A stretch of 64,000 bases of DNA, taken from Closterium sp. NIES-65 (taxonomy: Eukaryota; Streptophyta; Zygnematophyceae; Desmidiales; Closteriaceae). The stretch lies in NCBI GenBank assembly GCA_948144175.1, contig CANXME010002568.1, forward strand, positions 1,115,001 through 1,179,000. Direction: 5' to 3'. A program made the translations under genes and the position numbers. Under the pieces are notes generated by a model. The model saw only the letters and a program-made list of their open reading frames with translations, was not told the DNA's origin and made no database searches. Below are positions 10,764 through 43,418 of this stretch, piece by piece. Numbering within the stretch: position 1 is the stretch's first letter; every line of letters starts with the position of its first letter.

Positions 10764-11745
10764 TAGAGCAGCACCTTCACCAGCACCTAGAGCAGCAGCC
10801 TCACCAGCACCTAGACCAGCAGCCTCAATGTCCGGGTCAAGCGGAACACACAGGTAACAGTCACCCTCATCACTAGTAGACACAACATACATGGCAGCAA
10901 GAATGGCATCATAATCTAGATCAAAGATAGCAAACCCCGACCTAAGCAGCTCGCCCCAGCGGGGGATCTCAGTGGCGTCAAGGAACTAGAGACGCCAAGC
11001 GTTCGTCAAGCGGCCGAAGCAGCGTTGGGTGGTGTGCGGGCCACCGCACGGCTCATTAGTGCGGTCGCCGGTACGCAGGACGTAGGCACAGGGACCAGCA
11101 CCCCCACCCCACTGACGCGCAGCATACCACTTACGAAGCTGCTGGGGGGGCGGGGTCTCACGAGTGCGCTGTTGCTGCTGGCGCTGACCACCACCGAAGC
11201 CGCCCTAGTGCGCATAGCCACCCCGACCAGCTCCACCGCCGCCGCCGCCACCTCCGCCACCGCCGCCTCCTCCGCCTCCTCCGCTCCCACTGCCACCGCC
11301 ACCGCCGCCTCCGCCTCCACCGCCGCCACCGAAGCCCCCACCCCCGCCACCACTCCCACCGCCACCCCCACCCCCTCCGCCGCCTCCACCACCACCTCCA
11401 CCGCCCCCGCCAGCTCCTCCACCGCCCTTGCCCCCCTTGCCCTTGCCAGTGCGGCGTCTCCCGCTAGGGGCAGACGTACCGCCGACCGACTCGGTGCCAA
11501 CGAAGTCGACGGCAGCAGCAGAGGCAACAGAGGGCAAAAGGGGGGAGGGGGAGCACCCCTCAAAGAAGGGGGAACGAGGGTCACTACGAGAGGCTCCTAC
11601 AGCGACTATACTCTTCTTAGCTGCCAGGAGGCGCTCCTTGAGGAGGTCAACGGTGAGTGTGGTGGGGCAAACTGAGAGGAAGTGGTCCCTGACGGAGCGA
11701 AGGGAGTCAAGGAGCCGGGTGACTAGGTAGTAGAGGGTGATGTAA

Positions 11746-11780
<35 letters not shown>

Positions 11781-12227
11781 CTTGGCAGGAAGCGCAGCGC
11801 GGTAGCAGGTGTCACTAGTGCGAAGGTGCGTAATGAGGTCAGCGACTGTAGAAAAGGCGGCGAGGTCAAGGAACAGGTACGGCAGCATGAGGCGGCTAAG
11901 GGTAGCAGTGGCAGGGGAAGAGTAGCGTGCAACTACAGCGTCGTACAAGGTCTTAGCACTCTTGTACTGACTTAAGTGCGCGCGCTCAGTGGACGGCAAG
12001 TGACTACGCACAGCAAGAGGGGCAGCAGCATCGCGTGTGGCCCACTGTGAGCGAACAGTGTTGTCAGCATCGGCAGCAAGGGCAGTAGAGGCGCCAGACG
12101 TGAGATCGAACAGTGAGAGACCGTCATTCTTATCGCACTGCAGGAAAAGCTGCAGATCATCGACCCAGACCTCAAAGTCGACAGCTCGACCCTCAGCATC
12201 AATGGTGAGAACGCTAGGGGTAGCCAT
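10764..12227 (-). pseudogene. gag: B1 gag
   Basis: Starts MATPSVLTIDAEGRAVDFEVW, the conserved gag start of the family, followed by copia gag text (HLSQYKSAKTLYDAVVARYS, VADLITHLRTSDTCYRA). A run of 30 G bases at 11749-11778 encodes a Pro tract and keeps the frame. Next come a very Gly-rich region (11205-11430), a stop at 11205-11207, and remnants of an unusual knuckle, C-x13-C-x3-H-x4-C. Near 10990 another stop occurs. RNA binding is inferred from the Gly-rich and knuckle segments. Confidence 0.8.
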
Positions 12228-13218
12228 GACAGCAGTAGCAGTAGCAGTAGGCTAGGAGCAGCTCAATAGCAGAGGCGCGGCTCGGCGGTGCTCTTACTAG
12301 GGCGAGTGGGTAGAGGTCCGCAAGTGGTGGGGCAGGGCCGAGAAGCGCCGGCAGGGACAGGGCCACGAAAGGGCGGCAGAGGAGTGTCGCTCCTCTGTGC
12401 AGGGCAGGGCCGGGACGGCGGCTCCTGCTGTCGGCGGCGGCTGCGGCCCGGGCCGCGGTGGCGGCGGCTGTCATGGCAGCGGCGGCGGCGGCTGTCGTGG
12501 CAGCGGCGGTGGCGGCTGCTGCTGGCGGCGGTGGCGGCGGCTGTCACGGCAGCGGCGGCGGCGGCTGCTGCTGTCGGCGGCGGCGGCGGCTGCTGCTGTC
12601 ACGGCAGCGCCGGCGGTGGCTGTCGCAGCAGCGGCGGCGGCGGCAGCTGCTGTCGGCAGCGGCGACGGCGGCGGCCCCGGCAGTGGTGGCGGCGGCTGGT
12701 ACGCCGCGACGGCTGCTGCTGCTGGGGCGGCGACGGCGGAGCAAGGGCCGTGAAGGAGCCGAGAAGGGGCCGCGGAGGAGCCGAGAAGGGGCCGCTAAGG
12801 GCGACGAAGGGGCCACGAAGGGCCGTGAAGGGGCCGTGAAGGGCGGCGACAGGGCCGCGAAGGGCGGCGACGGGGCCGAGAAGGGGCCGTGAGGGGCCAT
12901 GAAGGGCGGCGACGGGGCAGAGAAGGGGCCGTGAGGGGGTCCGCTAAGGGCGGCGACGGGGCCGAGAAGGGGCCGCGAGGGGCCACGAAGGGGCGACGAG
13001 GGGCCGCAAGGGGTCGCGAAGGGACGTGAGAGGGGCCGCGAGGGAGCCGCGAAGGGGCCGCGAGGGGCCGTGAGAGGGGCCGCTACGGGGCCATAAGAGG
13101 GCGCGACGGGCCGCTAAGGGTAGAGGACGCGACTCGGGAAGGAGCGAAGCGCGCTCTGGGCAAGAAAAAAAAAATCAATTTTCGTGGTGGGCCCTAGGAA
13201 ACGTTCCCACTAGGGAAC
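12228..13218 (-). repeat. GC-rich leader of B1 (CGG-like and GGGGCCG repeats)
   Basis: About 1 kb between gag start and the primer-binding site. 12,440-12,720 is built of GGC/CGG triplets with GGCTGTC spacers. 12,730-13,130 is built of units such as GAAGGGCGGCGACGGGGCC. Open frames here are compositional artefacts of repeated triplets. Confidence 0.7.
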
Positions 13219-19560: not shown

Positions 19561-20757
19561 GACGACAGACTAGCAGTGCAAGCAGTGGGGGGGGGGGGGG
19601 GCAGGGCACGCAGTAGCAGTGGGGCGTGCTCACCAGACGGGGCAGGACAGGCAGCTCGGCAGAAGGGCGGCTCGGCTGCGGGGCGGCTCGGCTGCTGGGC
19701 GGCTCGGCGGCTCGGCTGCTGGGCGGCTCGGCGGCTCGGCTGCTCGGCGGCTCGGCGGCTCGGCTGCTCGGCGGCTCGGCTGCTCGGCGGCTCGGCGGCT
19801 CGGTGGCTCGGCAGCTGGGCGGCTCGACGGCTCGGCTGCTGGGCGGCTCGGCTGCGCAGCTGCAGGGCGGCTCGGCCCTTCCGGTACTCGGCGGCGCGGC
19901 GGTCGGCTGCTCGGGTGCACGATGCAGTGGGCGAGGAGCTGAGGGCGGCGAGGCCGTTAAGTGCAGGGCGGCGGGGCCGTTAAGTGCAGGGCGGCGGAGC
20001 CGCTAAGGGTAGGGCGACGGGGCCGCTAAGGGAGGGCGGCAAGGCCGCGAAGTGCAGGGCGGTAGGGCCGCGGTAGAGGGGCGGCGGGGCCGGGCCGTGC
20101 AGGGCGGCGGGGCCGCGAAGGAAGGGCGGCGGGGCCGCGACTGAAGGGCGGCGAGGCCGCGAAGTGCAGGGAGCGGCAGGGCCGCGACGTGCAGGGCGGC
20201 GGGGCCGCGAAGGGAGGGCGGCGGGGCCGCTAAGTGCAGGGCGGCGGGGCCGCTAAGTGCAGGGCGGCGAGGCCGCTAAGTGCAGGGCGGCGAGGCCGCG
20301 ATGTGCAGGGCGGCGGAGCCGCGAGTGAAGGGCGGCGGGGCCGCGTGATGCAGGGCGGCGGGGCCGCGAAGGAAGGGCGGCGGGGCCGCGACGTGCAGGG
20401 CGGCGAGACCGCGACGTGCAGGGTGGCGGGGCCGCGAGTGAAGGGCGGCGGGGCCGCGTAGTGCAGGGCGGCGGGGCCGCGAGTGAAGGGCGGCGGGGCC
20501 GCTAAGGCAGGGCGGCGGGGCCGCGACGTGCAGGGCGGCGAGGCCGCGACAGTAGGGCGGCAGGGCCGCGAAGTGCAAGGCGGCGGGGCCGCAACGTGCA
20601 GGGCGGCGGGGCCGCGAAGGGAGGGCGGCGGGGCCGCGTAGGTAAGGGCGGCGCGACGGGCCACCAGAGGCAACACGGAGGGTCGCTAAAAAAAAGGTAG
20701 GGCGCGCCTCGGGGCGCGCTTCGGTGGGCCCTAGAAGCAGTCCCTAGGAGGGAACCT
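19561..20757 (-). repeat. GC-rich tandem-repeat leader of B2
   Basis: 1.2 kb between gag and primer site. 19,655-19,860 consists of GGCTCGGCGGCTCGGCTGCT-type units. 19,950-20,650 consists of a 22-26 bp unit with core GGCGGCGGGGCCGCGAAGTG. No genuine reading frame. The unit differs from those in B1 and B3 at the same place. Confidence 0.8.
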
Positions 20758-34113: not shown

Positions 34114-35589
34114 TTACACGAGCTGGCCGCAGTCCTGAATAGTAACCTCCACCGACGTCTTGCCACTGTCGCTACCGACTGACTCCAGCTTGTCAACGAC
34201 ATCCATTCCTGATGAGACAAAAAGCAAATACCACACTTTAAATCTCAAAAGATTTCAAACTTCCACAATCCCCATCTTACTGCTTGTCAACAACCACCAT
34301 CCCCACACAGCTGTCTCCCTCACTCACCTACCCCCCTTACTAGTATACCCCTTAGTTCTCCCCACATCCCCTCCCAACCCCACTAAACCCACCTGAAACC
34401 ACCTTCCCAAAGACGACATGCTTGCCATCCAGGTGAGGCGTAGCAGTGAAGCAGATGAAGAACTGGCAGTCTGAGAGGGTGGGGAGGGGAGGGGGAGAAG
34501 CAAGCATGGAAAGTGAGTTGGTTGGAAGCACCAACGCACATGCACACCCATCATCTATGACCACCTTCCTGGTGACGGCCGTCCAGGTAAGGCGTAGCAG
34601 TGAAGCAGATGAAGAACTGGCAGTCTAAGGGGGTGGGGAGGAAAGGAAGGAGGAGGGAGGGATGGGGGAAATGGGAGAGAAGAGGTTAGAAAGTGAGGTG
34701 GTAGCATTAACGCACAGCCAGCCCCCCAAACTGCAAACAACATCCCAAGCGACAGTCTGAGCTATGTGATACAGGAAAGGGAGGGTGACAGAATGAACAC
34801 GAGGTAGTGTAGGCGAGTGATAAAAGAGAGGATGATGCAAGAGAGGGTGACGCAAGGGAGGGTGGTGAAAGCAAGGATTGATGGTGTGATCCGTTTGAAA
34901 ACGAATTCGTCAGGAAAGTGCAAAACGGGGGAATGACTTTGCACTGTGACACACATCCACCATTGTTCCTCCACTCACTATTCGTGTTGGGGCCGCGATT
35001 CGCCATGGAGAGAACGCCTCTGCCGGTGTGCCTCAGCTCGAAGCTCTCGTCAGGGAACGGCTGGCCGAATATGGAACTGCCGCAGTTGCCTCCCTGCCAT
35101 GTGAAATATGTGGTAAAAAACAAACAAACAAAAGAAAACGGAAGTAAAGTTCGGACACGTAGCAGATGGAGTAGTGGGAGAAGACAGGGACGAGGTTTAG
35201 TGTCGACCTAGAAGGCGAGGGACGATGAGAGGGACGCTTGTATACAGGCGGATGTGTGACGCAGTCTGCGTTCACCACTTACCTGCGCTGTCACCTACCC
35301 GCGATTCGACGCGTACCTACGTTTGGACGCGCACCCGGAGTTCGACACCTACCTGCGGTTCGACACCTACCTGCGGTGCGACCCGTACCTGCGCCATGAA
35401 TCCGGGGATGATGCGGTGCAGCGTCAGGCCCTTATAGCCCAGTCCCGAGCTTGTCCCATTGCACAAGCCGACAAAGTTCTCCACCGTCTTCGGCGCCACG
35501 TCCGGCCGGACCTCCACCTCGATTCTGCCGACGAACTGCCCGTCGAACGCAATGTCCAGGAAGCATCGCGGTCGCGCTGCGGAGCTCAT
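34114..35589 (-). CDS. cyclophilin-type peptidyl-prolyl isomerase, four exons
   Basis: Exons 35389-35589, 34979-35093, 34393-34470 and 34114-34208 join in frame through GT-AG introns into 162 residues, the size of a single-domain cytosolic cyclophilin. Motifs: [27 protein letters not shown] (catalytic Arg, Phe, Gln), [33 protein letters not shown], ending TIQDCGQLV. Compared with cyclophilin A the loop after GGN is about six residues shorter, and the drug-contacting Trp before LDGKH is His. It should isomerise Xaa-Pro bonds. Extra copies of exon 3 and of the exon 1 donor lie in its introns. Confidence 0.93.
34560..34624 (-). pseudogene. second, decayed copy of cyclophilin exon 3
   Basis: Lies in intron 2, upstream of the real exon 3. 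It has its own acceptor (CCCCCTTAG) and reads [17 protein letters not shown], then loses the VVFGKV segment through a small deletion (HQEGGH). The flanking intron sequence is duplicated as well. Including it would disrupt the protein. Confidence 0.88.
35290..35388 (-). repeat. 18-bp repeat of the exon 1 splice donor
   Basis: Directly after exon 1 the minus strand repeats an 18-nt unit of the type CGCAG|GTAGGTGTCGAAC about five times. Most copies keep an AG|GT junction in the same reading frame, so each could serve as an alternative donor adding six residues. Confidence 0.85.
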
Positions 35590-37408
35590 CGTTGAAAACC
35601 GTTTGAAACCGAATACGACCGTTTAAAAGCCGAGTGAAAGCGCTGCGGCTTGAAGGCTTCAAGCTCACTTCCGCGTTTGCGACACGACCGGTGTGTCCGA
35701 AATGGCGAAAGCTTTCGCGAACGACGAAATCCGTATGTCCTCACGGACAAAGAGCGAATCTGTGGAGGGCGAAACAGATTCTTCTTCAGAAAGGAGAGAG
35801 CGCAAGGGAGCGACGAGCGGTACCTACGGACGGACGAGAAGCGGAGAGGAGGCGACGACGAGACCAAACACCAGATCTTACGGAAACATTATGGCCGTCC
35901 CTATTCTCGATAATTTCACACCCCTTAAGCGCACACCCTGGAGTAAATACTCCCGGTCAAACGTTTAAGTAGGGTAGCAAGCAACGATTGTAGACTATCG
36001 GAGGAGGGGGTCTCGCAACCTTCTCGCGAATGGAAGAAAAAAACCTGGAGTTTCAAGGGCAGCCATCCACCCCTACTACTCACTCGGAAAATTAAGTGCT
36101 AGACTCCATACTACCCTCGTCAATCTTTGGGTGTCTCTCATATCGAACCAGAAAACGTACAGGGTACCTTCGAAATAGATGATAGGGGTATGCAATTATC
36201 GAGAATAGGGTGTACAAAGAAGAATGTCGCCTACGGGAATTTATTCTTGTCGTATCCGTTGAATGCCTCGCTCGCGGTGTTCCCTATGCCAGGAACCAGG
36301 ACGAGCTTCTTCCTTAAGATCTCAAGGTTGGCGAAAATACTTGCGTAACATAGAGATTGTTACATTACCGAGCTTGAGCAACTGGAGCGCAATAACCGTA
36401 TACAGTCTCCGCCATGACAACCTAGGATGCTCGTTATTGACATCAGCCTAGAAATAACAGATATGGTAAGGAATATAGTTGCACCCCGCATGTCACGTGC
36501 CCTTTCCCAAGATGGTCAACCTACAGAGCACTTTCAGAGTGCTTTGTTCAGCCCTCCCTCCACCCCGCCCCAATGCATTCACAAATCTAAGCACAAACCA
36601 GAGTGTTCTTGAGAATTCTCAGAAACACCCAACACAAAATCCACACAATGCCAGGAAAAGGCTCAAGGAATAAGACCCAATGAGTGAAACCTGCTCTGTG
36701 AAGTTCCTGACCTGACTCCTCCTGAGCTGAGCCTGCCATATTGTGGAGGCATATCAGATTCAGAAGTTACAATTGCCTGAAATTGTGCCATCACCCTGTT
36801 ACGGTTACCATACCTGCCACCTGTTCCTGCTACGGTACTCACAACCTGTTAACCAAGCATAGGAAGAGGTTCCTTCTTGGGTAATCCTTCCCCCAAGTAC
36901 CCTCAGAATAGCCCACCCTTTTATGCACTCCTGCTGCGGTCACAGCTGCTGCTGCTGCTGCTGCTGCTGCAGCTGTGCTGTTGCTGCTGCTGCAGCTGTG
37001 CTGTTGCTCGCTGCTGATGCTACTGCTTCCCCCAACCCCCCTGCAATCTCCAGCTGCGATTGCAATCACAGCAATAGCTGCTGCTGCTGCTGCTGCCTCT
37101 GCTGTCGCTGCGGCTAGCGCTGCTGACATCCTTGGGCAACTCACAAGCTGCATCGGATTAACCACACAAAGCAACCTCCTGATGGGCGAAACTCAAGGCT
37201 CGGCTTAACCTGCGGCCTGCACGGTGACTAGACTAGCCCCGCTGCAGCTACATGCGACACAACAGCTGAACGGCCTGAGTATCAGAAACCTCCCTGCTGC
37301 TACGTTGGAAGCAGTTTGAATGCGAGAATCCCCCTGCCTGAACCTCCCTTTCCCTGGCCTCCCCCTCCCTCCCAGCCCTCCTCACCCTGCCCTGCTTTCT
37401 CCCATCCC
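35590..37408. other. intergenic with CTG/CAG repeats
   Basis: No supported gene. CTG-rich stretches lie at about 36944-37010 and 37076-37110. A palindrome TCTTGAGAATTCTCAGA lies at 36606-36622, related to motifs inside the PP2A gene. Confidence 0.6.
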
Positions 37409-37441
37409 TCACGATGCCTCCACTGACATGCCCATTCTCAT
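37409..37441 (-). pseudogene. echo of PP2A B' C-terminal codons (copy 2)
   Basis: Reads [10 protein letters not shown] and a TGA stop, identical in sense to the real C-terminus at 37831. It lies downstream of the gene end. Confidence 0.85.
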
Positions 37442-37554
37442 GCCCCAACCCTGCATCGCCACCTGCCCCCCACCTCCCTCCGCCCCCAACCACCCTGCTC
37501 CCCGCCCTGCTCCCCACTCTGCTCCCCACGCTGATCCCTACCCCCTCCCACCCC

Positions 37555-37722
37555 TCACGATGCTTCCACCGACATGCCCATTCTCATATCTCGACTCTGC
37601 ACCCCACCACCCCCAACACCAACACTCCCACCGCCGCTGTCCCCATACATGGGCGAGCGAGCAGCAGCCTCCTCAAGTCGTCTCCACGCGAGCTCCCTGC
37701 CCGTCTGCACGTCCCTTCCTGC
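37555..37722 (-). pseudogene. echo of PP2A B' last coding segment (copy 1)
   Basis: Reads [19 protein letters not shown] and [12 protein letters not shown] plus stop, a near copy of the end of the real exon 3. It shows a few substitutions and an insertion in the Gly tract. Confidence 0.88.
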
Positions 37723-37830
37723 CTGCCTGCCTGCCTGCAACCTCCCTCTCCCCCGCCTCCTCCCTCCCTCCCAGCCCTCCCCACCCTCCTCCCCTCCCTC
37801 CTCCCCACCCTGCTCCCTGCTTCCTCCCAC

Positions 37831-40800
37831 TCACGATGCTTCCACCGACATGCCCATTCTCATATGTCGACTCTGCACCCCACCACCGCCGCCAGCGTCC
37901 CCATACATGGGCGATCGCGCAGCAGCCTCCTCCTCCAGTCGTCTCCACGCGTGCTCCCTGCCCGCCTGCACGTCCCTCTCCTGCGCCTCCTCCTCCAGAA
38001 ACTGCCTCTGGCAGTCCTCGTAGAGAGCTTGATCCATTTCCAGAAACATCTTGCGCACGTTGATGGTTAAACCGTTCACCGCCTATAATGAAGGGTAAAG
38101 GAGGATAAGGAGAGCGGGAGGAGGGAAGGGATGCAGCACAGCATGCATTGGGCACGGGGAGGAACTGCCTCTGGCAATCCTCGTAGAGCGCCTGGTCCAT
38201 CTCCAGAAACATCTTCCTCACGTTGATGGTTAAACCGTTCACCGCCTGGGTGGGATAGAGGAGGGCGGGAGCGAGGGTGGGGAGAGGGTGAGACACTTCT
38301 GAGAATTTTCACTTTTGAGAATTCTCAAAACCGTTCACCGCCTGGGTGGGAGTCACTTTAGAGAATTCTCAAAACCGTTCACCGCCTGGGTGGGATGGAG
38401 GAGGGCGGGAGCGAGGGTGGGGAGAGGGTGAGGAGGAGAGGAGAGGGTTGGGAGAGAGGGAGGGATGGGAGGAAGAGCAGTGATGAAGGGGTGGAAGGGA
38501 GGATGGGATGGGAGGAAGGGAAGAGGCGTAGCGTGCACTGGGAAGGGGGGGGGGGGGGGGGAGGGGGGACTGCCTCTGACAGTCCTCATAGAGTGCCTGG
38601 AGCGTCTTTGAGACGCCTCAAAAATAACCTCATTACACCTGGAGCATCTCAAAATACATCTTCCTCACACGCCCCCTTCTCTTCTCTCCTCGCATCCCCA
38701 CCCCTTTCTTCCATCGGCCTTTCGCCCTTTCAGCCTACCTTCTCGATTTCCCTCCAATCATCCTTCTCCCCTTCCCCTCGCCCCTCTCCTCTCCTCCGCC
38801 CGCCACAAGAGCCCCGGATATCAGCGGCAGCAAGGCACATCGGTTCCGCATTCTCCCTTCTTCTCACCTCACACTCTCCTTCTCCTCTCCCTTACCTCCT
38901 TCTGCCCCCGCACCTGGTTCCAGTGGCTCCTTGCATTTTTCTCCATAGCCCCGAATAGCGGCAGCACAGTACCTCTCTTCCCCTTCTCAATTCACCTCGT
39001 ACCTCCGCTGTTCCTCCCTCCCCTCACAATCCCCTCCCCATCGTCCCTCCCCCTTTCCTCCTCACCGGGTTCCAGTGGCTCCTCGCGTTCCTCTCCAGAG
39101 CCCCAAAGATCAGCGGCAGCACAGCAGCTCAGTTCTGCCTTTTCACCGCTCCCCACCCCACCCACTCCCTTCCCATTCCTGCTCACCCCTGCTCACCCCT
39201 CCCTTTTACACTCCTTTCCTCCTCCCCCCCTCACCTGGTTCCAGTGGCTCCTCGCGTTCCTCTCAAGGGCCCCGAATATCAGCGGCAGCACGGCAGCGCG
39301 GTTCTGCGCCACGAGGCTGACGATGTAGTCGTTGTTCCACAGGAACAGGGTGCGCTCGGCAACCTGATCGACAGGGGAGGGTGCCCCAACGGGCGCGTGC
39401 AGGGTTGGGTTGGGGGGAGGGGAGATGGGAAAAAGGGTTGGGTTCTGCGCCACGAGGCTGACGATGTAGTCGCTGTTCCACAGGAACAGGGTGCACTCCG
39501 CAACCTGATCGACAGGGGAGTGGCGGGAAGAGGAGGGCAGGAGGGTTGGGGACATGTGTTTTCTGTTGAGGCAGCACGGCAGCGCAGTTCTGTGCCACGA
39601 GGCTGACGATGCAGTTCTTGTTCCACAGGAATAGGGTGCGCTCAGCAACCTGCATGGGTGGGGGGGATGGGGAGGGGAGGGCAGGAAGGGAAGGGAGGAG
39701 GGGGAGAGGGGGAGGGGAGGGGGGTTGGTGGCGGGTGGACATAGCGACTTGTTATGAATGATATTCTGAGAATTCTCAAAAAAATAACTCATGTCACGTA
39801 TGCAAGGACGTAGCGACTTGGTAAGCAGCACGGCATGGCAGCTTTTGAGGCGCCTCAAAAGTCACCCCAGTATGCAGGGGGAGGGGAGAGGAGCGTGTGT
39901 GTACGGGGTGCCATGCCATGCATTATGTGTGCCATGCCATGCATTATGTGTGCCATGCCATGCCCCATGTGTGCCATGCCATGCCCCATGTGTGCCATGC
40001 CATGCCCCATGTGTGCCATGCCATGGCGTGAGCTAATGAAATTGGAGGGAAAGAAGAAGGGAAGGAAAAAAAACATATGCATAGCCCTCAGAGGCGTCAC
40101 GGCCTGATGGCCACCTGATGGCCACCTGACAGCCACCTGACAATCACCTGACAGCCACCTGACAATCCCCTGACAGCCACCTAACAGCCACGTGATAACC
40201 ACTTGAGTCTGTGGAACCAGAGCTCCCTTCCATTCATTTTCACAGCCGCACAGTCCTCTTCCGATTTCATTCCCGCTTCTCCTCTTTTCACTAGCTGAAG
40301 GCCACCTGAAGGCCACCGGGCAGCCACGTGATAACCACTTGAGTGTGTAGAACCAGAGCTGAGCTCCCTTCCATTCATTTTCACCCAGTCCGTTTTCCGA
40401 TTTCACTCCCTCCCCCCTCCCCCCTTCCTCTTTTCACTCGCTTCAGCCACTCCCCATACCCCGTTAATCTCATCTTTTGTCACCAAGAGAAGCAAAGGCA
40501 GTTGTCATGGCCCTCTCCGCTCCCCACCCGGCCCCACCCCCCACCTTAGATTTTAGAATAACCCTCAAATTCCCCCTCCCCTCTCTCTCCCGAGCTGCCT
40601 TATATGTTGACAAGGCAACCTTCAATCAAACCCACCCCTCCCCCCTCCCTCCCCCCCTCCCCAACCCCCCCTCCTCTCCCAAACTGCCTTAGCCCTCCCG
40701 AAGTTGAGCTGTAGGGGCAAAAATCTTCCTCCCTTCCCCTCACGCCTTCCGGCCACGAGACATTGAGGCAACCCTCACAATCCCCTCTCCCTCCGCCCCA

Positions 40801-43418
40801 CGCTCCCCCCCTCCCCTCCCCCCTCTCCCCACCCCGCCCACACTCTCCGAGATGCCTTAGCCCTCCTGGAAGTGCCAAATCTTGACGCCCAAGCCCTCGT
40901 CTCCCCTCTCCTCCCCTCGCCTCCCCTCCCCTCCCCTCCCCTCCCCTCCCCTTCCCTCCCCTCCCCTCCCCTCCCCTCCCCTCCCCTTCGCACCCTTCTA
41001 CCTCCCCTCCCTTCCCTTCTCTTTCCTCTCCCTCCTCCCATTCCCCACCTTCCGCCCACATACAACAACTCGATAACTCACTTGCAAGTGGGAGCTATTG
41101 ACGCACACCCTTCTCTCACACCCCCCCTTCCGCCTCTTCCTCCCTCCTCACCCCACACCCCATTACCTCACCGACAAGTACGAGCTATTGACACCCACCC
41201 CTTTCCCCACACCCCATTACCTCACCACCCCACACCACACCCCATTACCTCACCTCCATTACCTCCCTCCTCACCCCACACCCCATTACCTCACTGACAA
41301 GTACGAGCTATTGGCACCCACCCCTTTCACTACACCCCATTACGTCACTGACAAGTACGAGCTATTCATGCAGTAAGCGACCGGGAGAGGAAGAGCGCGC
41401 GCGGAGCAAGCAGGCTGCACTGCAACCCTGTCGCTTACCCTTCTTCTTCCCGTTCCCATCTTTCCCGACACACACACCTCGTCTTCTCTTCTCCTGGATC
41501 ACCCAAAAGTGCAATTTGCTACCCCACCAAAAGCCGAGCAAGCAGGCTGCACTGCAACCCTGTCGCTTACCCTTCTTCCCGTTCACATCCATCTTTCCCG
41601 ACACACACACAGCTCGTCTTCTCTTCTCGTGGATCACTCTTTACATTTCTCAAAAGTGACGCCCAAATCACACGTACCTCGTCTTCTCTTCTCCTGGATC
41701 ACTCAAAAGTGCAAGTTGCTACCCCACCGCGTGCGAATCGACATCCCCTCCCACTTAACCCCCTGCCCTCCTTCGTCCCCTCCCCCCACCCCCCCCCCTC
41801 CCGCCTTCCCTTCCCTTACCCCCCCCCCCCCCTCCCCCCCCCCCCCCCCCCCCCCGCGCTTCCCTCCACCCTCCCCTACCCCCTGTTCACACACACACCT
41901 GGTCTCCCATTTTCTTGTCTCACCCGGAAATGATGCACCCCCCCCAGTTCTTCCAGATTGTTTGTGTGTTTTTATAGTAAACAAAAAGCTCCTCCCTCGC
42001 ACTGTCGACGCAGGCATTTTTTTGCGAACTCTTGGAAAAAAAAAAAAAACAAATTGCGGAATAGCAGCAAAATTCCTAAACAAATGTCTTCGAAGCGAAA
42101 TTTTTCCCCGTCGCCCCCCCATCCCCTCATCACACCTTGCGAACTCACCTTTTTCTGTTCTCACCTGGAAATGCGAGCTGTTGAGGCAGCGCGCGATGCG
42201 AAGAAACAGCGGCGCGACGACCTGCTGGAACTCCGCGCCCTGCGTGAGCTCCAGAATCTCCTCCAACTCCCCGAGAAACAGCACCTCCTTCTGGCTGTTA
42301 GTTAAGGGCCAGTACTTAAGCAGCCCGCGCAGCACCACGTCCGCGAGCGACGGGTCCTTCTCGACAAACTGCGTGATACAATACGACAGCTGCTGGTGGT
42401 ATATAGACACGCACTTGGGCTTGTGCAGCGGGATTAACGCGCGGACCAGGAACAGCTTGTGCTCCTCTTTAAGAGGCAGCGCGAACCCGTTGATTATGCT
42501 GCCCAGGATCTCTAACAGCTCCGCGATCCCGTTGTGCCGCTCCGTCTCGTAGATAAAACGGTAGAAGATGTAGTTAATCGACTTGCGGATAAACGGCCGG
42601 TGGACCATGAACTTGCCGTATATCCGGTGCAGAATGGTCTTTAAATAGTCGCGCTCGCGCGGATCCTCGGAGTTGAACAAATCTAGCAGCTTCAGCACGA
42701 ACGGCTGGTCCAGGTACCGTTTCGCCACCTTAGCGTCAGTCTCGTTACTAACTACAAAGCGCAGCAGAAACTCGTAGACGATCTGCAAATGCGGCCACGC
42801 GAGTTCCATGTTCGGCTCCTCCTCCTCCGGATCGAACCCCTCCGACCCCGTGTTCTCGTGCGCGGACGGGGGGAGCGCGCGGAAGAGATTCGCGCGGAGC
42901 ATCCGCACGATGTCTTCGAACACCGCCTCGCTGAACTTCCCCGTGCCGGAATTGACGTATTCGACTAGTTCTAGGAGCGTCTGCCGCTTAATCTCCTTCT
43001 CCTTCATGTTCTTAAGCGGGTCCGCAAAGTCGAACGTGTGGCAGCAGAGCGCGAGCTTGCGGATGAACAGCGCCTGTTTTTCCGGAGCCGCCACGTCCCG
43101 GAAAAGCGGGAGCGGCTCGGCGAACGGCGACACGCTCGGATTCGCTACAGCTGGACTCGCTACAGCGTCTGACTTGTCCTTGTTGAAGCTGCTCGTTCGA
43201 AGCGCCGCGCCAGCGGCAGGCGCGGCGCCTTTTGCGGCATTGGCCCCGGGAGCCTTTCCTCCTGAAGCGCCCCGGGGGGCTGGTCCCCCGGCGGGACCGG
43301 CGGGGGGCGGCGCGTGCCCGTGGTGCTGGGCGGCACCGGCGGTGCTATCGTGGTGCTCGGCTTTACTTCCTGTTTTCTTCCGACCCCCTGCGAACGTTTT
43401 CTTAACGGATTGCAGCAT
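37831..43418 (-). CDS. PP2A B56/B' regulatory subunit, three exons
   Basis: Exons 42165-43418 (418 codons), 39235-39363 (43 codons) and 37831-38082 (83 codons plus stop), all phase 0, give 544 residues, normal for plant B'. The N-terminal ~95 residues are Ala/Gly/Pro-rich. The HEAT-repeat B56 core follows: [41 protein letters not shown]-like [44 protein letters not shown]. Exon 2 gives [17 protein letters not shown] ... ARSHWNQ, and exon 3 gives [17 protein letters not shown]. It directs PP2A to substrates in cytosol and nucleus. Exon edges are echoed repeatedly in its introns. Confidence 0.95.
38159..38245 (-). pseudogene. echo of PP2A exon 3, 5' half
   Basis: Acceptor CCCACCCAG, then [20 protein letters not shown] and YEDCQRQFL, matching the real exon 3 start residue for residue. 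It then diverges (PVPNACC) with no usable donor at the break. Confidence 0.9.
38312..38394 (-). repeat. two minimal echoes of the exon 3 acceptor
   Basis: CCCACCCAG|GCGGTGAACGGTTT occurs twice more, with first exon bases at 38341 and 38385. Each runs into TTGAGAATTCTC after about 14 exon bases. Confidence 0.88.
38574..38670 (-). pseudogene. rearranged echo of exon 3
   Basis: VRKMYFEML then, after an inserted palindrome-like segment, [10 protein letters not shown]. Both pieces match exon 3. The insertion breaks the frame. Confidence 0.75.
38805..38971 (-). pseudogene. two echoes of PP2A exon 2, 3' half
   Basis: 38932-38971 reads [14 protein letters not shown] followed by a GTG donor. 38805-38845 is a shorter copy around LPLISGAL. 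Both lie downstream of the real exon 2. Confidence 0.78.
39068..39127 (-). pseudogene. echo of PP2A exon 2, 3' half, nearest copy
   Basis: Reads [19 protein letters not shown] followed by a GGTGAGG donor-like site, nearly identical to the real exon 2 end at 39235. Confidence 0.88.
39440..39504 (-). pseudogene. echo of PP2A exon 2, 5' half, copy 1
   Basis: Acceptor CTGTCGATCAG, then [21 protein letters not shown], close to the real exon start at 39363. Upstream of the real exon. Confidence 0.9.
39567..39649 (-). pseudogene. echo of PP2A exon 2, 5' half, copy 2
   Basis: Acceptor CCCATGCAG, then [20 protein letters not shown] and NCAAVLPQQ. It breaks before the GALERN part. Confidence 0.9.
39908..40030. 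repeat. 21-bp minisatellite in PP2A intron 1
   Basis: Five to six copies of GTGCCATGCCATGCCCCATGT or its CATTATGT variant. Confidence 0.92.
40100..40395. repeat. CCACCTGACAG repeats and a ~140-bp tandem duplication
   Basis: Units of CCACCTGACAG (40,105-40,200). Then CACGTGATAACCACTTGAGT with GTAGAACCAGAGC-type sequence occurs at about 40,188 and again at about 40,327. Confidence 0.8.
40905..40990. repeat. CTCCC microsatellite
   Basis: Nearly perfect CTCCC units in PP2A intron 1, with further C/T-rich DNA on both sides. Confidence 0.9.
41075..41372 (-). repeat. four echoes of the PP2A exon 1 donor edge
   Basis: Minus-strand copies at 41075-41102, 41167-41191, 41289-41314 and 41343-41372 read CAATAGCTC(G/C) then ACTTG and a GTGAGT or TGAGG stretch. 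They align with the real edge CAACAGCTCGCATTTCCAG|GTGAG at about three quarters of positions. The first still encodes NSSHLQ before GTGAGT. Confidence 0.7.
41500..41945 (-). repeat. further decayed echoes of the exon 1 donor edge and C-runs
   Basis: 41909-41945 keeps CATTTCCGGGTGAGAC-like sequence (real edge CATTTCCAGGTGAGAA). 41500-41525 and 41697-41725 keep a weaker AGCAACTTGCACTTTT form. C homopolymers lie at about 41820-41855. Confidence 0.6.

Follow-up and report, generated by a model that had tools for sequence, protein, structure and literature searches.

Decayed copies of exon edges in the introns of a PP2A B' (B56) gene of Closterium, probable remnants of recurrent small tandem duplications

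The single-celled green alga Closterium sp. NIES-65 possesses a PP2A B' (B56) gene of three exons, located on the minus strand of a 64,000-nucleotide stretch (positions 1115001-1179000 of the contig labelled C2270), the whole of which was analysed and is called the window here. The gene is 100% identical to protein model P0001 of NIES-64 and matches the solved B56 delta chain with 551 bits. Its introns and its 3' flank contain decayed direct copies of the adjoining exon edges, hereafter termed echoes, the reality of which is confirmed. Exons and echoes are the following, with percentages of identity for the exon-derived and the intron- or flank-derived part, respectively:

42165..43418, minus strand: exon 1, 1254 nt, start codon at 43418
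41860..41932, minus strand: exon 1 donor edge, weak echo made up mainly of intron flank (matches at 8/9 exon and 43/54 intron letters)
39570..39724, minus strand: echo a, exon 2 acceptor half with intron flank (91%, 72%)
39441..39551, minus strand: echo b, exon 2 acceptor half with intron flank (95%, 80%)
39235..39363, minus strand: exon 2
38993..39138, minus strand: echo c, exon 2 donor half with intron flank (89%, 73%)
38853..38980, minus strand: echo d, exon 2 donor half with intron flank (81%, 83%)
38679..38849, minus strand: echo e, exon 2 donor half with intron flank, donor GT lost (74%, 74%)
38569..38668, minus strand: echo k, two exon 3 pieces (38569-38599 and 38638-38668) with a hairpin motif between them
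38372..38423, minus strand: echo h, exon 3 start (15 nt) with intron flank, 98% identical to echo f along 61 nt
38328..38343, minus strand: echo g, exact copy of the first 15 nt of exon 3 with AG, adjoining a hairpin motif
38160..38283, minus strand: echo f, exon 3 acceptor edge with intron flank (91%, 89%)
37831..38082, minus strand: exon 3, stop codon TGA at 37833-37831
37500..37739, minus strand: echo m, final portion of exon 3 with stop, and 3' flank (94%, 78%)
37329..37478, minus strand: echo n, last codons with stop, and 3' flank (81%, 88%)

Probes of 50 nt covering all three exons were compared with both introns and both flanks, the controls being dinucleotide shuffles and reverse complements. 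Probes from nucleotides 1-100 of exon 2 match intron 1 and those from nucleotides 51-130 match intron 2; in exon 3, nucleotides 1-100 match intron 2 and nucleotides 76-259 match the 3' flank. These matches score 27-48, the shuffles at most 12-21. In exon 1 a probe was taken to stand out if its score exceeded that of the best shuffle by more than 4; by this rule no probe of exons 2 or 3 matches a wrong region among the two introns and two flanks. Within exon 1 a single probe out of 50 stands out, at the donor edge (42218-42169, score 18, best shuffle 12), and the very last probe scores 16 (shuffle 12). The start-codon edge has no copy detectable with 50-nt or 60-nt probes.

A first-pass annotation of this DNA had described every internal exon edge as echoed. 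This applies to exons 2 and 3, for which all the copies it named (acceptor and donor halves of exon 2, starts of exon 3, final codons with stop) align where it had placed them, but the exon 1 donor is weak. From the series of exon 1 donor copies proposed at 41.07-41.95 kb, the weak echo at 41932-41860 is recovered; those at 41.07-41.38 kb, with a 54-bp array at 41.15-41.37 kb, are singly near chance (alignment scores 10-17) and were not accepted one by one.

Similarity crosses the junction in nine of the eleven alignments (a, b, c, d, e, f, h, m and n) and continues into 35-90 aligned intron or 3'-flank letters; no crossing is seen in g, which has 16 nt, or in k, which consists of exon letters only. 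The echoes are therefore tandem duplications of boundary-spanning DNA, as had been proposed. In six of the nine, more identity is retained in the exon-derived than in the intron-derived part, as expected if the exon copy is held by selection and drift affects both intron copies. Divergence between copies in the exon part is 5-26%.

Purely intronic local copies are found as well, e.g. 40185-40224 with 40321-40360 and 41501-41528 with 41701-41728. A diagonal scan yields 15 local-copy matches, compared with 0, 0 and 0 in three block shuffles. Self-blast of the whole window, retroelement arrays included, gives 45 direct and 2 inverted near self-matches; it missed some of the local copies found by the diagonal scan, and later counts were made by other methods. 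Among the complex noncoding intron tiles of the window gene, 15 of 65 resemble one of its own exons, which supports the earlier suggestion that boundary duplication is a route of intron growth.

A homeologue on C1202 (98.74% identical over 6682 aligned positions) has the echoes of the window gene. Echoes at the exon 1 donor, the exon 2 acceptor and the exon 3 acceptor are also present in the paralogues on C461 (near 1.02 Mb) and C1983, whose identity over exon 1 is 75.65% at protein level, and a third paralogue lies on C1809. Splice sites are conserved across the five copies, so that a complete boundary remains in each. With 60-nt probes these five genes give own-side matches at 15/30 edges, wrong-side matches in 1/90 comparisons, interior matches in 2/60 and start-edge matches in 0/5. 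The single wrong-side match is on C1809 (score 15, best shuffle 9), and the two interior matches fall within the stop unit, in exon 3 of the window gene and of its C1202 homeologue. In trees the echoes group with the exon of their own gene (short alignments of 84-99 nt). Support is 0.99 for the exon 3 set of the window gene and, where window gene and paralogues part, 0.94 in exon 2; for exon 1 it is 0.87. The duplications therefore arose separately in these lineages, and ancient echoes common to the paralogues are not supported by these short alignments. Degenerate B56 copies on C461 and C1728 also carry edge pieces. Further B56-like genes occur at C461:467977-469982, C461:690904-692895, C1728:113797-116990 and C1780:776050-778542, some with stop codons inside the matched exons; they are perhaps decaying copies.

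Between the window gene and C1202 there are seven differences of at least 12 nt, all of them extra sequence in C1202 and all intronic except a 16-nt end overhang. The others comprise inserts of 153 nt (G-rich), 31 nt (A-rich) and 1246 nt, two tandem inserts (14 and 42 nt), and an insert of 77 nt in which a hairpin separates two copies of a stretch of about 34 nt. The longest of them (L009 6014-7293) consists of a 16-bp unit repeated about 80 times, with the same motif as the TTTTGAGNNNNCTCAAAA-type palindromes of the window. The C461/C1983 pair shows five differences of at least 12 nt.

Edge scans of other multi-exon genes recover the pattern in chaperonin, proteasome and cyclophilin genes, and not in six Hsp70 loci. 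The chaperonin set comprises 30 matches among the 93 listed (87 of 166 candidates scored), each edge being the end of a profile match and only roughly an exon end. At a score of at least 22, own-side copies are present at 33/60 edges, with 0/60 on the wrong side and 0/120 inverted; counting one gene per homeologue set, the figures are 17/34, 0/34 and 0/68. The shuffle rule gives 35/60 on the own side and 0/60 on the wrong side. For the proteasome, three loci with five matches give 2/10 and 0/10. B56, chaperonin, proteasome and Hsp70 edges pooled have own-side copies in 27/74 and wrong-side copies in 1/110 (Fisher p 1.3e-11); the pool takes one gene per homeologue set, except for Hsp70, where all six loci are kept, leaves out cyclophilin and mixes two thresholds, the window exon 1 donor match (score 18) dropping out at 22. 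Overlapping copies next to exons do appear in the Hsp70 table for other members (C2039, C957 and C501).

The plainest case is the chaperonin gene on C43 (L047 1864-3291, opposite strand), with 11.5 units of 124 bp that are 98% alike, each carrying the acceptor edge; here too the duplicated segment spans the exon-intron junction. An intact exon follows the last unit only, and a donor-half copy lies downstream. In both chaperonin homeologues (L047 and L055), 12 occurrences of a 41-nt stretch of the edge follow one another at intervals of 122-124 nt. This is a young array of the same kind as the B56 echoes. Splicing to the next acceptor upstream would change the reading frame, 124 not being divisible by three. 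Of the 132 complex noncoding tiles in the chaperonin gene, 63 resemble an exon; the exon list of this gene is incomplete, and one listed exon is probably itself an echo.

Across 18 stretches of gene DNA, 40 of 98 distinct copy offsets fall at 120-179 bp and 14 of 98 at 260-299; these include three overlapping stretches of one gene (L022, L044 and L047), and offsets from the same gene are not independent of each other. Control stretches hold few local-copy offsets (3 in 44.5 kb, 0 in 8 kb and 8 in 24 kb). A size of about 145 bp may point to a link with nucleosomes or Okazaki fragments.

The echoes are direct in orientation, continuous across junctions, placed on their own side, decayed beside one intact copy, separate in origin between paralogues and recurrent in other genes; very probably they are remnants of recurrent small tandem duplications, of which selection has kept those that leave one working boundary. 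Duplications spaced mostly 120-180 bp would have their ends on either side of a splice junction or stop codon, and each would leave one complete boundary, namely the last acceptor, the first donor or the first stop, so that the mRNA could stay intact. The surplus copy would turn into intron or 3' flank and then decay. Duplications confined to an exon, or bringing a copy of the start codon upstream, would damage the protein and be lost. Such a filter would produce the own-side rule by removing harmful events, with no special device needed, and would equally explain the start edges without copies. The events themselves may stem from break repair or slippage. Break repair is known to produce small tandem duplications, the breaks perhaps arising from nearby nicks in opposite strands (PMC8355091). 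As described there, these duplications resemble the echoes in being direct, local and made in one step, but they are mostly below 100 bp and come from mammalian cells, whereas the Closterium spacing is mostly 120-180 bp.

Several observations weigh against this explanation. The exon part is not better kept in three of the nine crossing echoes (d, e and n), the C1809 paralogue is without any own-side echo (0/6), cyclophilin is positive at one of eight edges (tested with 50-nt probes, or with shorter exons whole), and six Hsp70 loci have own-side copies at 0/12 edges, as on the wrong side (0/12). The C461/C1983 pair has no difference of at least 12 nt inside the gene, its introns included, so the duplication rate is not high everywhere, and no new duplication was seen arising. 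A further point is the distribution of local copies in tiles that do not resemble exons (low-complexity tiles dropped from all counts): they are present in 48/215 intron tiles (28/146 excluding the chaperonin gene) and in 2/196 flank tiles from four genes, an excess of about 20-fold that the filter by itself leaves unexplained. A uniform rate predicts equal local copies in flanks and introns, and is in tension with this excess, with the few offsets of the control stretches and with the counts from elsewhere: 1/307 for non-retroelement intergenic and 30/1175 for retroelement-rich tiles of the window, and 34/633 in four random stretches. In the surroundings of the chaperonin matches, 192/601 flank tiles, mostly intron, have a local copy, with two inverted control matches. 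The persistence of old intron sequence for longer and the one-sided decay of exon copies act in the direction of this excess, and a mutation bias of transcribed DNA would do so too.

Introns or exon boundaries may themselves be mutational hot spots, where transcription, splicing or nucleosome-sized DNA would give rise to tandem duplications of 120-180 bp and introns would grow from exon edges. This differs from selective retention as to where the events take place, their nature being the same, and we regard it as possible, though clearly the less probable of the two. The intron excess and the concentration of offsets at 120-179 bp speak for it. Against this, the flanks are few, 5' flanks may be constrained, and retroelement DNA may be young; boundary units carry intron flanks along, and exon copies remain recognisable for longer. 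Some introns, moreover, are nearly devoid of local copies (1/25 tiles in C1809). A wider conjecture, which we offer tentatively and at similar odds, is that nucleosome-like tandem duplication of about 145 bp favours transcribed gene bodies, that introns genome-wide consist largely of copies of their own exon edges, and that the spliceosome picks among up to a dozen near-identical boundaries.

That some echoes are kept by use, as alternative exons or alternative protein ends, appears unlikely. Echo f makes the best case: all nine counted codon changes relative to exon 3 are synonymous (p 0.0005, 43% expected), but it is one of four echoes tested, and the other three give p values of 0.08 to 0.83. 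Pooled over the four, 20 of 28 changes are synonymous (p 0.002). Echoes a, b, f, g and h retain the acceptor AG, and c and d the donor GT, but echo c has an in-frame stop, echo e lacks the GT, and most echoes are parts of exons. Mutually exclusive or alternative whole exons, with both splice sites and a kept frame, do not fit these partial copies, of which only f bears a sign of constraint; judged by its codons, f is the one candidate for a used exon.

Two of the public protein models, P0001 and P0004, contain echo pieces in line with such use, and pieces are found altogether in P0001, P0003, P0004, P0007, P0009, P0123 and P0124 of NIES-64, NIES-65 and Naga37s-1. In the window, the stop codon lies inside a GTGAGT donor-like site (37826-37833). 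Model P0001 appears to splice at this site into the downstream echo, with a longer protein end predicted as a result. The remaining six models probably hold annotation errors or rare isoforms. The published annotation pipeline is reported to have drawn on RNA data (PMC10407611). Given these echo-derived segments, isoforms and gene models from Closterium need care.

Still less probable is that small hairpins or other mobile elements caused the duplications. The window contains six short TTTTGAGNNNNCTCAAAA-like palindromes (36607, 38313, 38357, 38606, 39764 and 39843; 0.22 expected), five of them in B56 introns; the C1202 hairpin lies between two copies of its stretch of about 34 nt; and the half-motif reaches 0.42 per kb in chaperonin loci, compared with 0.04 in retroelement-rich and random DNA. 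However, the C461 copy has echoes with 0 half-motifs in 3205 nt of introns, and most window echoes are not bounded by the motif, so hairpins are not supported as a general cause. An introner or similar element, with the same sequence in introns of unrelated genes, is not what was found, the trees grouping echoes with their own exons.

Chance similarity or misassembly is very improbable: the introns are rich in simple repeats and the exon 1 donor set is near chance, but the other echoes surpass shuffles and inverted controls and obey the own-side rule, copies have diverged in their exon parts, the C1202 homeologue shares the echoes, both chaperonin homeologues possess 12 units at the same spacing, echoes recur in Naga37s-1 models P0003 and P0123, and the assembly is described as built from PacBio reads (N50 30 kb) and linked reads (PMC10407611).

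The first-pass annotation knew of no named mechanism, but boundary-crossing tandem duplication is in print for an RdRp gene of potato (PMC4974935), and tandem genomic duplication is one of seven intron-gain routes listed in PMC3443670. The potato case, as described, shares with the echoes a direct tandem copy across an intron-exon boundary, splice signals taken from the parent boundary and divergence of the copies. It represents one event in one gene, yielding a new intron with RNA support, whereas Closterium shows many events at many edges, with surplus copies inside an old intron. Introners likewise link repeated DNA to introns, but are described as copying themselves into many genes (PMC9860276), whereas each Closterium echo derives from an exon of its own gene. 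A literature search of open-licence papers retrieved no genome in which boundary-crossing duplication recurs at many exon edges. Within-gene duplication is reportedly common and able to include intron boundaries; the copies described here differ in being mostly partial exon edges decayed in introns. While boundary-crossing tandem duplication is known, its scale here (several genes, many edges) and the intron bias appear to be new. The echoes provide a directly readable source of intron sequence with copies of many ages, and bear on intron lengthening and the possible origin of splice variants. Natural arrays such as the 12 acceptor edges 122-124 bp apart would allow acceptor choice (scanning, proximity or exon definition) to be tested.

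The B56 gene is surrounded by retroelements of the copia and gypsy types, a kinase gene and the cyclophilin gene, the last of which has the following features:

35292..35393, minus strand: 18-bp array of 5.7 copies, starting across the donor of exon 1, whose end is at 35389
34578..34655, minus strand: echo of the exon 3 acceptor edge, upstream of it (88% over 78 nt, crossing the boundary)
34424..34500, minus strand: exon 3 acceptor edge with flank, the source side (exon 3 at 34393-34470)

Rfam has no match in the window. Long GC-rich tandem arrays occupy 11236-13120 and 19650-20653 in its retroelement-rich part. Second by total bits for the algal B56 query is a poplar entry of 913 residues, P0002 (Populus deltoides H0E87_018569), which perhaps comprises more than one B56 stretch.

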